64,000 nt of DNA from Verrucomicrobiaceae bacterium (GTDB taxonomy: Bacteria > Verrucomicrobiota > Verrucomicrobiia > Verrucomicrobiales > Akkermansiaceae), in NCBI GenBank assembly GCA_027486655.1, contig JAIXOR010000016.1:124001-188000 (forward strand), read 5' to 3'. How positions within the stretch are numbered: position 1 is the stretch's first letter; every line of letters begins with the position of its first letter. Shown in pieces: positions 2 through 43,385 of the stretch. The notes beneath the pieces are model-generated. The model had not been told where the DNA came from. It did not search any database and saw only the letters and a list, made by a program, of their open reading frames with translations. A program made the translations under genes and the position numbers.

Positions 2-367
2 AATATCAATGGCTCACTTGTGCTTTCGGGAATCGCGGACTTCGAAATCGACCCCACCAACGGAATCGGACTCAACCGCTCTTCGGATCTCGCGAATGTC
101 TCTGGGGCCATCACGTATGGCGGCATCCTGAACCTGCTTTATGGAGGGTCGGCATCGGACTTCACCAGCGGCATGATTTTCAACCTGTTCGACGGCACTT
201 CATTCAGCGGAAGTTTCAGCACGTTGAATTTGCCGACATTGACCGGCGGCCTCACATGGCAGAACCACCTCGCCACCAACGGCACTCTAAGCGTCGTGCC
301 TGAGCCCAATGTGGCTGCCCTGCTCGGCGGCATGGGCGTGCTTGCGCTGCTGCGCCGGAGGAGGTGA
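2..367 (+). CDS. PEP-CTERM sorting domain protein, C-terminal part (5' end outside the window)
   Basis: The reading frame is open from the left edge of the window, so this is the 3' part of a longer gene; the first internal start (GTG at 20) is probably not real. The protein ends with a PEP-CTERM signal: VPEP, a hydrophobic stretch (VAALLGGMGVLALL) and a terminal RRRR cluster. Such signals direct exported proteins to exosortase for cleavage and envelope or extracellular-matrix attachment. The visible part before the signal is Gly/Ser/Thr/Asn-rich and resembles the passenger region of beta-strand-repeat proteins, but no specific domain can be assigned. It is followed by a 14-bp tandem repeat, a stem-loop and a two-hairpin element that recurs after the other PEP-CTERM gene at 39111. 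Confidence 0.85.
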   Translation, partial: NINGSLVLSGIADFEIDPTNGIGLNRSSDLANVSGAITYGGILNLLYGGSASDFTSGMIFNLFDGTSFSGSFSTLNLPTLTGGLTWQNHLATNGTLSVVPEPNVAALLGGMGVLALLRRRR

Positions 368-410: not shown

Positions 411-466
411 ACGGAATAGAAGAGAGAAGGCCACGGACTTCGTATGGGTTCTCCTCTCTCTTCCGT
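411..466 (+). terminator. imperfect stem-loop after the PEP-CTERM gene, possible terminator
   Basis: ACGGAA at 411-416 pairs with TTCCGT at 461-466. After a bulge, GAGAGA pairs with TCTCTC further in. It sits 43 bp after the stop codon and is followed by a weak T-rich stretch. There is no clean U-tract, so the terminator role is inferred from position only. Confidence 0.35.
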
Positions 467-504
467 TTCGAATTTCATGCTTTGGATTTAGTGCTTTCTG
501 AATT

Positions 505-562
505 TTGCCTCTGGAGGGGCAATCCAAGGGCGGTGCGCGTTATGGGTTTCCGTGCGCCGCCC
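505..562 (+). other. two-hairpin structured element, copy 1
   Basis: Hairpin 1 is TTGCC (505-509) paired with GGCAA (518-522), with loop TCTGGAGG. Hairpin 2 is GGGCGGTGCGCG (528-539) paired with CGTGCGCCGCCC (551-562), with two wobble pairs and loop TTATGGGTTTC. A second copy at 39951-40012 keeps the loops but changes paired bases on both sides of the stems, which argues for selection on structure. Both copies follow a PEP-CTERM gene by about 110-140 bp and precede another secreted-protein gene. The rest of 368-754 holds only the tandem repeat and the stem-loop. An RNA regulator, an mRNA-processing site or a palindromic repeat are all possible. Confidence 0.65.
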
Positions 563-754
563 AACCTGTTTCCAGCCTTCTCACTCCGACTTTCCCGAAA
601 ATTGCCGCCATCCAGAACTGTATGGTTGCAGCTCCATGAGACCGCTTCACCGGGCCATGCCCACACTCGCCACCACGCGACTGCAAGGACCCATCGCGCC
701 AGCGCCGACCGGAGCGAGTGCGCCACTTCAAACCACCACGAATCGAAAGCTTCC

Positions 755-39110: not shown

Positions 39111-39839
39111 ATGAAATCCACTCCACTTATCCGTAATCTCCTCGCATCCCTGGCCTTGGCCGCAGGCTCCTCCGCCAACGCCGCTGTCATCGCGGAATAT
39201 ACTTTTCCGCTGGTTAGCGGAGCTGTTAGCCAACCCACCACGTCCACCGCCACAACCGTAGCTTCCGGTGTCTCCGCATCGACCTTTGGCGGCGCAGGGG
39301 TTTCATACTCAATCGGTCTAGCCGACAGCGGAAGCACCTCCGACCTTGGCAATGCCTTCTTGAACCGCGCCAATACAGCAGCAACGAAAAGTGAGAGTCA
39401 TTATTTCTCGTTCACAGTCACGCCTGATATTGGCAAGACGCTCAATCTCACTTCCGTCAACTTTTTCTACGGCGACGCCCAGACCGAAGCTTCTCCCATC
39501 GTCTTAAACCTCGGTCTCTACACATCGGTGGACTCCTATGCCGCTCAAGTCGGCAGCACGTTGTCATGGTCTCCTGCCACTACCACCAAGGTAGCCCCCG
39601 CCGATTACTTCACAACGGCGTCAGGAGCCCAATATGCCTCTCTCGATCTTTCCGGCCCGGCCTTCCAAAACCTCACCACCGCTACCACCTTCCGGATCTA
39701 CGGCTGGGATAACTCCACCGCGGCCGGCCAACTCCGCATCGATGACGTTCAACTCAACGGCACGGTCGTCCCCGAGCCAAGTGCCGCTCTTCTCGGCGGT
39801 CTCGGCCTACTTGCCCTCCTGCGCCGCAGTCGCGCCTGA
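39111..39839 (+). CDS. PEP-CTERM sorting domain protein
   Basis: 242 aa from ATG 39111 (MKSTPLIRNLLASLALAAGSSANA signal peptide); the longer frame to 39039 is rejected because it would start beside the regulatory element. The body is a single beta-rich domain of unknown family (SFTVTPDIGKTLNLTSVNFFYGD, FRIYGWDN). The end has VVPEPSAALLGGLGLLALLRRSRA: PEP motif, hydrophobic helix and basic tail. It is expected to be exported, processed by an exosortase and placed in the envelope or matrix. No exosortase gene is in the window. The two-hairpin element lies 112 bp after it. Confidence 0.88.
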   Translation: MKSTPLIRNLLASLALAAGSSANAAVIAEYTFPLVSGAVSQPTTSTATTVASGVSASTFGGAGVSYSIGLADSGSTSDLGNAFLNRANTAATKSESHYFSFTVTPDIGKTLNLTSVNFFYGDAQTEASPIVLNLGLYTSVDSYAAQVGSTLSWSPATTTKVAPADYFTTASGAQYASLDLSGPAFQNLTTATTFRIYGWDNSTAAGQLRIDDVQLNGTVVPEPSAALLGGLGLLALLRRSRA

Positions 39840-39950
39840 AATGCATTCCTTCCGCTGAATCCACGGGAACTATTCACGGTCGATTGCACCCACCGATCAC
39901 CCGACTCCCAACCCAAAGCCTATCAAGAGAAATCTGAATCGCTTCCACAC

Positions 39951-40012
39951 TTTGTCTCTGGAGGGACAAACCCATGGGCAGTGCGTGGTTATTGGGTTTC
40001 CACGCACTGCCC
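39951..40012 (+). other. two-hairpin structured element, copy 2
   Basis: Hairpin 1 is TTTGTC (39951-39956) with GACAAA (39965-39970), loop TCTGGAGG as in copy 1. Hairpin 2 is a perfect 13-bp stem, GGGCAGTGCGTGG (39976-39988) with CCACGCACTGCCC (40000-40012), loop TTATTGGGTTT. Compared with copy 1 at 505, both strands change together (TTGCC/GGCAA versus TTGTC/GACAA). It is in the leader of the beta-strand-repeat gene, ending 79 bp before ATG 40092. The linker CCCA can also pair with TGGG in the hairpin-2 loop, an alternative rather than simultaneous fold. Confidence 0.68.
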
Positions 40013-40091
40013 AACACTTTCGTTTCGTGTCCTTTTCCCTGTTCTAAAAAATTCATCTCCAAACCCTCTCACACAAAAACCATATCAACCA

Positions 40092-43000
40092 ATGAAACCG
40101 AAATACAACGCATTCCTCCGTGCCTCCCGCCTCGCCCTGCTCACCATCTCGCTGTCCACATCCGTTCATGCCGGCACGACTTGGGATGGTGGTGGCGCCG
40201 CCAATACCAACATCGACCTCGCCGATAACTGGGATGGCACCGCGCCAGGCGTGGTCAATGCCCTGAACGGGACCACCGTCGCGATCTTCGCCACCGGTGG
40301 CAATGCTGCGGCCATGAATGTCCCGGCCCGCTTCACCACAATCACCTTCAACCGCAACGACGCGGGCGGCTTTGCCATCAGCGGCGCTTCCACCTTGTCG
40401 GCCAACCAAGCCACGGCGGGAGGCACCATCAACCTCGCAGTTTCCGACACCGCGGGCAACGGCGTTTCTTCCATCAGCTCCGCCTTCCAGGTCAACACCG
40501 ATACCGGGGGGAGCAACCGCCTCCTCAATATCAAGAACGATGAGAAAGACGTGCCCGCCGGTTCGCTCCTGGTCAGTGGAGGCATCTCCGCATCCACGCC
40601 CGCCAACAACTATCAGATCCGTGCCGGCGGCACCGGAGTCACCGTTCTCAGCGGTACGCTGAGCCACGTCAGCGGCATCCAGCAGGTCAACTCCGGCACC
40701 TCCTCGGGCAAGGTCATTGTCAATGGAAGCCAGAATCTTGGCTCGGCTTCGGTGAACATCCCCAGTTCGACGAGCGGCACGGTGTCATCGGCCTACACGA
40801 TCCAAATGGGTTCCTCCACTGCGGATATCCAGTCTTGGGGGACCACTACCATCAACCAGAACGCGACGGTTCTCGTGAAATCCACGGCAACGCTCAGCGG
40901 TGCTGTCTCGGTGGGCGCGAATGGTGCGAATCTCGTCGTGGACGGTGCCTTGAACGCAACCACGTTGTCTCTCGGCGGTGCGACCGCAGCGTGCAACCTA
41001 AAGATCGGCGGCAGTGCCAGCTTCTCCGGTAACATCGCGATTGGTGCGACTGCGGGCAATCTCATCGTCGGAAACGCAGCCACGAATGGAACCCTCTCGC
41101 TCTCCAGCGGTACCATCAGCAACAATGTGACCATCGGCGGACCCAACCCGAACGAGAACAATCTCAAGCTCACGAAAATCAGCAGCGGCATCCTCAACCT
41201 CAACGGTACGCACACCTACACCGGGGACACCAATGTCAATGTCGGCACCCTGAACCTCGGCGGCACGCTCGCCTCCCCCATCACCGTCAACGCCGGTGCG
41301 ACACTCACCGGCGAGGGCTCGACCACCGGCTCGCTCACCTTCGCCACCGGCTCCAGCGCCCTCAGCTTCGATCCCGTGACTCCGACTGCAGCACTCACTG
41401 CGGACACGGTTGATGTCTCCGCCACGGGCTCCCTTGTTCTGGTGAGCCCGACCGCCGCCACCACGCCTTTGTCCACTTACACAGTTCTGAAACGCGTCAC
41501 CGGAAGCTTCGCTCCCGGGGATCTCGCGAAGTTCGCCATGGCCTCCCGCGGCGGCAGCTTGTCGATCTCGGAAGACGGCAAGGAAATCAAACTTACCGCC
41601 GCTGCGTCCACGCCGGTCTCGCTTACGTGGAAGGGCAACGCTGCCAATCCCACCTTCTGGGATGTCGCCACCACACTCAACTGGGATAACAGCGGAGCCG
41701 AACGTTTCTATGCCGGTGATGCGGTCACCTTCAATGACACGGGCTCGCCCATCGTGGCCGTTCAGGGAACCACGGTTTCCCCTGGCAACATCCTGTTCGA
41801 TAATACGACCGCCAATGCCTACACCGTCAGCGGTGGCAGCATCGGGGGGGCTGGTTCGCTCACCAAGAACAACACCGGCACGGTGACCCTCGCAAACTCG
41901 CTGGCCCACACCAACGGCATCGTCGTCAATGCAGGTGTCCTCGATCTCGGTTCGGCGAACAACACCTTCACCGGTGGAGTCAACGTTGCGGGTGGCGAGC
42001 TGAAATTCGGCGGGGCGGCGCTCCCGGCCACCGGTTCGCTTAACTCTCAGGCGGTCACGCTCAATGGCGGCAAAATCACTCGCACCGCCAATACCACCAT
42101 CACCAACGAATCCCAAATCTTCACCATCAATACCAACGGTAGCGAAATCAGAGTCGAAAGCAGTGCCACCACCACTTGGCGCATTGGTGGTAAGATCTCC
42201 GGTGCGGGAAACTGGATCAAGTCCGGGACCGGCGTGTTGGCCCTCGGCCGTTTCAGCGACTCGAATCCTGCCAATGATTTCACCGGCACGGTCACCGTCA
42301 CGCAAGGCACTCTCGATGTCCGCCACGGCAATTCCCTCGGATCTACTGCCGCCGGCACCTTCATCCAGGGCGCGTTGCTCATGATGCAGAATTTCGGGCA
42401 GACCGCTGGCACCTACACCGTGGACGAGCCTCTCGACTTCTCCGGCGCTTCGTTTCTCACCGGTTACAGCCAGGAAGCCAAGATCTTCACCCAGCAGTTC
42501 AACGGCACCATCAACGTACAAGCCGGCACCACCCTCGGGATCGCCACCGCGCGTGCCGGATCCACCACCGCGCCGACTCTTGAGCTCAACGGCACGACCA
42601 TCACCACCGGTGCGGGCAGCGTCCTGAACCTCGGCACCCGGGCCGCCAGCTACCCGGGTGCCTTCACCGCCGCCACCCAGACCATCAACATCGGCGCCGC
42701 CATCAGCGGCCCTGGCGCGGTAACGGCCCAAGGCGATGCCGGCTCGGTCTACACCCTCAGTGCCCCCGGCTACTCCGGCAACACCACCGTCAACAGCGGC
42801 ACGCTGAAACTCGGCGCGGTCAATGTGAACAACGATGCCTCCACCATCACCGTTGAAAGCGGCGCGAAGATCGACATCGCCTTCTCCGGCAATGACACTG
42901 TCGGCACGCTCATCCTTGGCGGAACCAACGTGGGCCCCGGCACTTACAATGCCAGCCACCCAACCTACGGCTCATATTTTACTGCCACCGATAGCGGAAG

Positions 43001-43385
43001 TATCGTGGTCCCAGCACCCGTCGGCGGCTACTCCGCCTGGCAAAACGCCAACGGAGCCGGCGTTCAAACCGTCGATCAGGACCACGACAACGACGGCGTG
43101 GACAATGGCGTCGAATACTTCATGGGCGGCAATACCAATACCACCGGTTTCACCGCCACCCCGGCGCTCAATTCCTCGAATAACATTACCTGGACCATGG
43201 GCGATACTTATTCCGGAACCTACGGCACCGACTACGTCGTGCAAACCTCCAGCAACCTGACCGCCTGGTCTCCTGTTGCCATCGGCGATGTGGTCATCGA
43301 CAACACCATCCCCAACAAGTCCGTTTCCTACACCCTGACGGGAGTCGGCAAGCGCTTCGTCCGCCTCCTGGTGAACCCGAACTGA
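40092..43385 (+). CDS. secreted autotransporter-associated beta-strand repeat protein
   Basis: 1,097 aa from ATG 40092 (signal peptide SRLALLTISLSTSVHA); the open frame back to 39981 crosses the hairpin element. The mature protein opens with GTTWDGGGAANTNIDLADNWDG and contains many beta-helix-type repeats of the autotransporter-associated class (GILNLNGTHTYTGDTNVNVG, GTVTLANSLAHTNGIVVNAG, APGYSGNTTVNSGTLKLG). A calcium-loop-like DQDHDNDGVDNGVEYFMGG at about residue 997 and a final beta domain ending GKRFVRLLVNPN match the tails of the giant hydrolases. No outer-membrane autotransporter barrel is present. A role in the cell surface, adhesion or polysaccharide holding is inferred. Confidence 0.85.
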   Translation: MKPKYNAFLRASRLALLTISLSTSVHAGTTWDGGGAANTNIDLADNWDGTAPGVVNALNGTTVAIFATGGNAAAMNVPARFTTITFNRNDAGGFAISGASTLSANQATAGGTINLAVSDTAGNGVSSISSAFQVNTDTGGSNRLLNIKNDEKDVPAGSLLVSGGISASTPANNYQIRAGGTGVTVLSGTLSHVSGIQQVNSGTSSGKVIVNGSQNLGSASVNIPSSTSGTVSSAYTIQMGSSTADIQSWGTTTINQNATVLVKSTATLSGAVSVGANGANLVVDGALNATTLSLGGATAACNLKIGGSASFSGNIAIGATAGNLIVGNAATNGTLSLSSGTISNNVTIGGPNPNENNLKLTKISSGILNLNGTHTYTGDTNVNVGTLNLGGTLASPITVNAGATLTGEGSTTGSLTFATGSSALSFDPVTPTAALTADTVDVSATGSLVLVSPTAATTPLSTYTVLKRVTGSFAPGDLAKFAMASRGGSLSISEDGKEIKLTAAASTPVSLTWKGNAANPTFWDVATTLNWDNSGAERFYAGDAVTFNDTGSPIVAVQGTTVSPGNILFDNTTANAYTVSGGSIGGAGSLTKNNTGTVTLANSLAHTNGIVVNAGVLDLGSANNTFTGGVNVAGGELKFGGAALPATGSLNSQAVTLNGGKITRTANTTITNESQIFTINTNGSEIRVESSATTTWRIGGKISGAGNWIKSGTGVLALGRFSDSNPANDFTGTVTVTQGTLDVRHGNSLGSTAAGTFIQGALLMMQNFGQTAGTYTVDEPLDFSGASFLTGYSQEAKIFTQQFNGTINVQAGTTLGIATARAGSTTAPTLELNGTTITTGAGSVLNLGTRAASYPGAFTAATQTINIGAAISGPGAVTAQGDAGSVYTLSAPGYSGNTTVNSGTLKLGAVNVNNDASTITVESGAKIDIAFSGNDTVGTLILGGTNVGPGTYNASHPTYGSYFTATDSGSIVVPAPVGGYSAWQNANGAGVQTVDQDHDNDGVDNGVEYFMGGNTNTTGFTATPALNSSNNITWTMGDTYSGTYGTDYVVQTSSNLTAWSPVAIGDVVIDNTIPNKSVSYTLTGVGKRFVRLLVNPN

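Follow-up and report, generated by a model that had tools for sequence, protein, structure and literature searches.

The closest described counterparts of the element examined here are stem-loops in clostridial operons. As far as the available text of one report goes, internal intrinsic terminators that follow the genes for substrate-binding proteins of ABC importers are poorer in U than canonical terminators and have longer GC-rich stems, and stem-loops of such transporter operons reduce the amount of downstream transcript (PMC9045158). Intercistronic stem-loops of the clostridial cip-cel operon are thought to fix the ratio of adjacent gene products in carbohydrate degradation, again according to the accessible portions of the sources (PMC4423207, PMC10311766). 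A counterpart of another kind is the REP element; in the part of the source that was available, these GTAG- and CGTC-tagged repeats are described as dispersed short palindromes, often 3' of genes, in which some G-T pairs suggest an RNA function (PMC3733652). The element reported here resembles the clostridial internal terminators in that a stem-loop lies between the gene of an extracellular protein and downstream genes of the same cluster, and in its long GC-rich stem (13 pairs) and a tail poorer in U than the canonical one. It differs from them, as they are described in the accessible text (PMC9045158), in forming one covarying family with a conserved loop and an additional preceding hairpin, in occurring in many unrelated gene clusters while dispersing as a unit, and in that its terminator role is predicted. 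With the cip-cel stem-loops, in the same portions of those sources (PMC4423207, PMC10311766), it shares an intercistronic placement in carbohydrate-degrading systems, but its tail is terminator-like and any processing in it is putative.

Two copies of the element had been proposed in the stretch of 64,000 nucleotides from a Verrucomicrobiaceae bacterium that was analysed here (the window). Both were recovered on the forward strand, at 503–562 (copy 1) and 39950–40012 (copy 2), each a few bases wider than originally drawn. They matched a covariance model of nine source-genome copies (R1) at 77.7 and 77.9 bits, respectively, both being members of its training set, and 51 of their 70 aligned columns were identical. 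The folding z-score of copy 1 was −3.2 on the forward and −1.5 on the reverse strand, and that of copy 2 was −5.6 and −4.7. According to the fold and the nine-copy alignment, hairpin 1 spans 503–522 (+) in copy 1 (TTGCC...GGCAA) and 39950–39970 (+) in copy 2 (TTGTC...GACAA). Hairpin 2 of copy 1 occupies 528–562 (+), with arms at 528–539 and 551–562 and the loop TTATGGGTTTC at 540–550, and hairpin 2 of copy 2 occupies 39976–40012 (+), where arms at 39976–39988 and 40000–40012 pair perfectly around the loop TTATTGGGTTT. The stem changes that the sequence-only reading had seen between the copies were verified, namely TTGCC/GGCAA against TTGTC/GACAA in the first hairpin and a long stem remade as GGGCAGTGCGTGG/CCACGCACTGCCC in the second. 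Weak, U/C-containing tails follow at 563–572 (+) (AACCTGTTTC) and 40013–40024 (+) (AACACTTTCGTT).

Copy 1 is preceded by a PEP-CTERM gene, the 3' part of which lies at 2–367 (+); the full protein has 868 aa in the genome and carries PATR repeats and the PEP-CTERM signal. Between its stop codon and the element, an extra purine/pyrimidine hairpin that is found at a subset of loci occupies 413–469 (+). The gene 3' of copy 1 encodes an alpha-L-fucosidase (755–2338, +; Pfam Alpha_L_fucos, E 1.5e-76). Copy 2 is flanked by a 242-aa PEP-CTERM gene at 39111–39839 (+), with a Pfam match of 18.5 bits that is slightly below the curated cut-off of 20.7, and by the gene of a 1097-aa PATR (autotransporter-repeat) protein at 40092–43385 (+). 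By pattern search, the window contains two recognisable PEP-CTERM genes; their ends are at 367 and 39839, and a copy of the element follows each. All genes called between 755 and 47392, a run of ~47 kb that begins with the alpha-L-fucosidase gene, lie on the forward strand, and many have signal-peptide-like starts. One of the two elements stands at or near the start of this run and the other within it.

Nothing in Rfam reached the gathering thresholds, and permissive scans of each window copy returned weak matches far under the family thresholds. The earlier impression that this is not a known RNA family therefore holds as far as Rfam goes. No description of such an element was found in the available portions of the openly licensed literature on PEP-CTERM/Verrucomicrobia hairpins, RNA motifs, repeats and operons. 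ANTAR target RNAs, which obey a rule of two hexaloops with a fixed A and G, also consist of two tandem hairpins and take part in terminator-linked control. In the element, however, the first loop is short and variable, the second has about 9–11 nt, and hairpin 2 is itself a terminator-like stem; membership in the ANTAR targets was rejected because these loop lengths and letters break the two-hexaloop rule.

A DNA search revealed more copies in the source genome, and R1 found ten there, nine of them strong and the tenth weak (29.5 bits). The tenth rose to 48.4 bits with a second model, R2, once it was included among the 26 copies from which R2 was built; R2 scores are circular for these 26 training copies. 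When 59 genomes were searched with R1, source included, matches were obtained in 11, that is, in 11 of the 37 from the genus and in 0 of the 22 from other families. With R2, matches occurred in 20 of 386 genomes of the order and 23 of 260 genomes of the family at E 0.01, and in 3 of 387 genomes of the phylum at E 0.001, the source genome counted in each case. Absence from the other genomes is unproven because filters were stricter in the large scans and few candidates were scored in each genome. Altogether, the covariance-model search among relatives that had been proposed for this element yielded 55 copies in 23 genomes, all within one family of Verrucomicrobiales, and pairing was kept in these further copies. 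The element measures 57–66 bp and occurs 1–12 times per genome in the 20 genomes that were rescanned. The total retains three weak copies (L167, L168 and L169) and one in G286 (L162), probably a plain terminator, in which the conserved loop is missing. A separate search of named genomes with the hairpin-1 core returned 21 stretches; three of these (L041, L055 and L056) scored 67–74 bits, 16 scored at most 28 bits, and L048 and L054 were unlisted at E 0.1. There were no exact matches of this core in viral contigs.

Across the family, hairpin 1 has the stem TTGCC(T)C/G(G)GGCAA and a short, variable loop, and ACA is frequent just 5' of it. A short linker separates it from hairpin 2, a GC-rich stem of 13 pairs whose ends are mostly conserved (GGGCGG/CCGCCC at the base and CGG/CCG beside the loop) and whose middle varies freely. 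The loop of hairpin 2, TA(W)TGGGTTT, is conserved and about 9–11 nt long. Single-base length variation among the copies led us to reject a coding role. The proposal that selection acts on structure through compensatory changes was supported by the alignments. In the nine-copy alignment, 10 of 21 pairs had changed on both sides, with a covariation of 0.327 against 0.170 after shuffling; in the 26-copy alignment, 17 of 21 pairs had done so, with 56 cells against 16.6. None of 500 shuffles reached the real value in either alignment, and slid controls were all far below it. A scan of column pairs across 51 copies placed its top five covarying pairs in hairpin 2; 14 of the 40 pairs listed were helix pairs, and the rest were weaker. 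G-U outnumbered A-C by 53:16 in hairpin 2 and by 35:6 in hairpin 1, where the excess comes mostly from a single near-fixed U-G pair. Three opposite-strand rows of alignment A6 were left out of both the scan and these counts. The excess of G-U over A-C identifies the sense RNA as the molecule that folds. Four alternative pairings were compared within and between copies. Pairing between the 3' arm of hairpin 1 and that of hairpin 2 was somewhat better within copies than across them (2 of 200 shuffles did as well). The linker (AATCCC) with loop 2 (GGGTTT), a pairing that looks good by eye, and loop 2 with the 3' arm were both rejected, being no better within copies than between them, as was pairing of both 5' arms, for which 22 of 200 shuffles were equally good. 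No prominent alternative fold appeared in the column-pair scan.

An upstream gene was called for 51 copies, and by script 50 of these genes were co-directional with the element; 49 is the fairer figure because the gene upstream of L079 lies 1384 nt off with a divergent gene in between. PEP-CTERM genes made up 33 of the 51 (31 by script, together with fragments seen in L113 and L160 that the initial gene calls had missed). The other 18 comprised seven with LFxRLxV-like secreted-type C-termini, judged by eye, four LuxR-type response regulators and seven various genes. In the source genome, nine of ten copies lie 3' of PEP-CTERM genes. Conversely, 24 of the 28 PEP-CTERM loci found there with PF07589 are without the element and four have it, in a search that is insensitive here and recovers four of the nine element-bearing PEP-CTERM genes. 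The earlier statement that a copy stands after each PEP-CTERM gene is thus correct for the window (2/2) and not in general, given that 33 of 51 elements follow such a gene and most PEP-CTERM genes are without one.

The element lies at a median of 99 nt from the upstream stop codon and 111 nt from the called downstream start; genes were called by a codon-score script, so that starts are approximate and start errors make three downstream gaps negative. Its strand was that of both neighbours at 45 of 48 loci. Downstream genes within 600 nt were co-directional in 49 of 51 cases by script, with L079, L080 and L110 as exceptions. Because other neighbouring gene pairs are likewise co-directional (82/91), the strand of the element is informative and the orientation of the next gene is not. 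Among 45 of the 47 listed downstream proteins that were scanned (L097 and L030 were omitted), PATR domains were found in eight, alpha-L-fucosidase in seven, beta-helix in four, and GH97, rhamnosidase N-domain and DUF5703 in three each, counts that may overlap inside one protein.

Individual loci bear on which gene the element serves. The next gene is a convergent GH28 gene at L110 and a convergent ORF without a Pfam match at L080, so that the element can serve only the upstream gene at these two places. At L079, the element lies within the leader of a GH51-type gene, the other side being taken by a divergent gene with GntR-like and sugar-binding regulator domains, and it therefore cannot be solely a 3' element. 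One PEP-CTERM gene, 70–83% identical to that of the source genome, retains the element in G000, G002 and G158, and in G018 hairpin 2 alone is recognisable beside the same gene (15.1 bits), its stem altered yet paired. Counting G018 with its lone hairpin 2, this gene thus retains the element in four genomes of two genera. The genes downstream showed no similarity between G000 and G002 at E 1e-10 and were similar between G002 and G158. Also common to two genera are the order LuxR response regulator, element, alpha-L-fucosidase (L095, L114), with almost identical regulator C-termini, and the order PEP-CTERM, element, ECF-type sigma gene (L092, L096).

Hairpin 2 reached −20 kcal/mol or lower in 47 of 55 copies, compared with 0.7% of random 38-mers. 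Past its stem, T was enriched from +3 to +8 and made up 45–67% of tail positions 3–8. The first eight tail bases held at least three T in 47 of 55 copies and at least four in 31 of 55, the values for random 8-mers being 19.5% and 5.7%. A strict tail rule, at least five T in an 8-base window beginning 0–2 bases past the stem, was passed by 27 of 55 copies, compared with 30 of 1511 random places; both window copies failed it (0/2 passed), T enrichment being a property of the family. A consensus terminator scan called nothing at either window copy, and its loop limit of 8 also excludes both.

The element has pairing-selected hairpins, a conserved loop 2, a T/C-rich tail, a single fixed strand and an intercistronic place. 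The reading we favour, tentatively and with somewhat less than even confidence, is that it is a structured RNA in co-directional clusters rich in polysaccharide hydrolases, 3' of genes for secreted, mostly PEP-CTERM, proteins, where it would act in cis as a leaky internal terminator and cap the upstream mRNA at its 3' end. Hairpin 2 and the U-poor tail behind it would stop part of the transcripts past the upstream gene, both hairpins would cap and protect the terminated upstream mRNA, and read-through would yield downstream mRNA in smaller quantity. A putative factor that tunes termination or decay may make contact with the fixed loop and with hairpin 1. In favour of this reading are the stability of hairpin 2, the T enrichment of the tail, the G-U excess, the strand shared with both neighbours, the convergent neighbours at L110 and L080, and retention at one PEP-CTERM gene beside unlike downstream genes, as well as the match of stem, tail and place with the internal terminators of clostridia as described in the available text (PMC9045158) and the short spacing to the next gene at some loci. 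At seven loci whose gene starts are believable, only 19–42 nt separate the element from the next gene, which leaves no room for a separate promoter, so that partial or conditional read-through would be needed. Of the three roles the sequence-only reading had offered, an mRNA-end element fits best. Against a leaky terminator stand the tails, only 27 of 55 of which pass the strict rule, with neither window copy among them, and the consensus scan, which calls none. It is further weakened because a plain terminator needs neither a conserved loop of 9–11 nt nor a first hairpin, and because L079 lies in a leader and 24 of 28 PEP-CTERM loci manage without the element. A dedicated factor may be involved, since a terminator and cap alone leave the conserved loop unexplained, and this loop suggests a dedicated partner. 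The structured RNA signal has clear borders, and with its covariance model and 55 instances it makes RNA-level control of polysaccharide-breakdown and PEP-CTERM genes testable.

The element disperses as a discrete unit. Within a single genome, L079 and L080 have in common 72 bp (93% identity) that end within the tail, with unrelated flanks, and the similarity of copies with unrelated neighbours is higher when both come from one genome (0.684, 124 pairs) than when they come from two (0.608, 1131 pairs). In the source genome, nine of the elements agree pairwise at 73% of positions, compared with 43% of third codon positions at shared amino acids of the PEP-CTERM signals, so that the element is under selection, spreads independently of the gene, or both. 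The shared 72 bp and the higher similarity within genomes would also suit a REP-like mobile DNA repeat without regulatory role, whose hairpins a transposase reads as single-stranded DNA so that pairing is kept, as would the patchy presence in 23 of 260 genomes of the family and the 15 Y1-transposase (Y1_Tnp) matches in the source genome. We regard such a repeat as improbable. REP elements, in the accessible text of the source (PMC3733652), are likewise dispersed short palindromes that often lie downstream of genes, but they measure 20–40 bp and have a high copy number, whereas the element has 57–66 bp, two unlike hairpins and only 1–12 copies per genome. Near their ends, 54 of 55 copies carry no GTAG/CGTC tag on either strand, the remaining one having CTAC near its 5' end; 8 of the 15 Y1_Tnp loci were scanned with the model and gave nothing at E 5, and no genome-wide match coincides with a transposase locus. 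REP membership was rejected on the tag, the transposase link (8 of 15 loci), size and copy number. The fixed strand relative to genes, the G-U excess and the T tail indicate RNA instead, and retention at the same PEP-CTERM gene across several genomes also argues against a mere repeat; the palindromic repeat of the earlier reading is right only in the sense of a dispersing unit. The case is an example of a small RNA element that both moves among loci and is kept by pairing selection. Y1-transposase matches lie at the first bases of source-genome contigs C3, C45, C65, C79 and C80, as if the assembly had broken at repeated insertion sequences. Very unlikely, in our view, is a riboswitch-like 5' leader element controlling the downstream gene. 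It would fit L079, flanked by the gene of a divergent regulator and by a GH51-type gene, and the arrangement of response regulator, element and alpha-L-fucosidase in two genera (L095, L114), but at L110, and probably at L080, no gene of the element's own direction follows, one PEP-CTERM gene with its element precedes unlike genes in G000 and G002, and most copies start close behind the upstream gene (median 99 nt).

Two further alternatives were weighed. One is a conditional terminator or antitermination site, at which hairpin 1 and the TGGGTTT loop would be read by a dedicated factor that gates the downstream genes, the copies forming one regulon. We consider this unlikely. It would explain the conserved loop and hairpin-1 stem, superfluous for a plain terminator, and the downstream genes that are alike in function (PATR 8, alpha-L-fucosidase 7 and beta-helix 4 of 45), and the 3' arms of hairpins 1 and 2 do pair somewhat better within copies (2/200 shuffles). 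However, no alternative fold is prominent, three of the four alternative pairings are no better within copies, and at L080 and L110 there is no co-directional gene that could be controlled. The source genome encodes a NusG paralog of the RfaH/UpxY/LoaP group, under the cut-off of each family, but nothing connects this paralog with the element. The paralog gene lies at 1261–1863 (−) of L148, on source-genome contig C14, with an HTH-type ORF upstream. An undescribed RNA regulon, in which a protein-read loop would conditionally stop or release transcription between PEP-CTERM and hydrolase genes and the site spreads as a small unit, is doubtful to the same degree; if it exists, new gene clusters would enter it by acquiring a copy. 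Somewhat less probable again is the processing site of the sequence-only reading, where a nuclease would cut at or near the element and the hairpins would shield the upstream mRNA or the new 5' end while transcription continues. Tandem stable hairpins between genes of unlike dosage, the seven loci with short spacing to the next start, the extra upstream hairpin at 8 of 55 loci, and the cip-cel intergenic stem-loops reported for selective RNA processing in the available parts of the sources (PMC4423207, PMC10311766) are all consistent with it, but processing does not need a positional T enrichment past hairpin 2.

The extra purine/pyrimidine hairpin (GGAAGAGAGAAAG...CTTTCTCTCTTCC) lies between the stop codon and the element at the eight loci concerned, which are the window locus (413–469) and L104, L085, L086, L116, L118, L159 and L160. 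It was found at none of 24 PEP-CTERM loci without the element and in none of 276 random windows. In L116 and L118, more strong palindromes lie in the ~200-nt spacer between stop codon and element, and the whole spacers fold at −90.6 and −61.6 kcal/mol, respectively.
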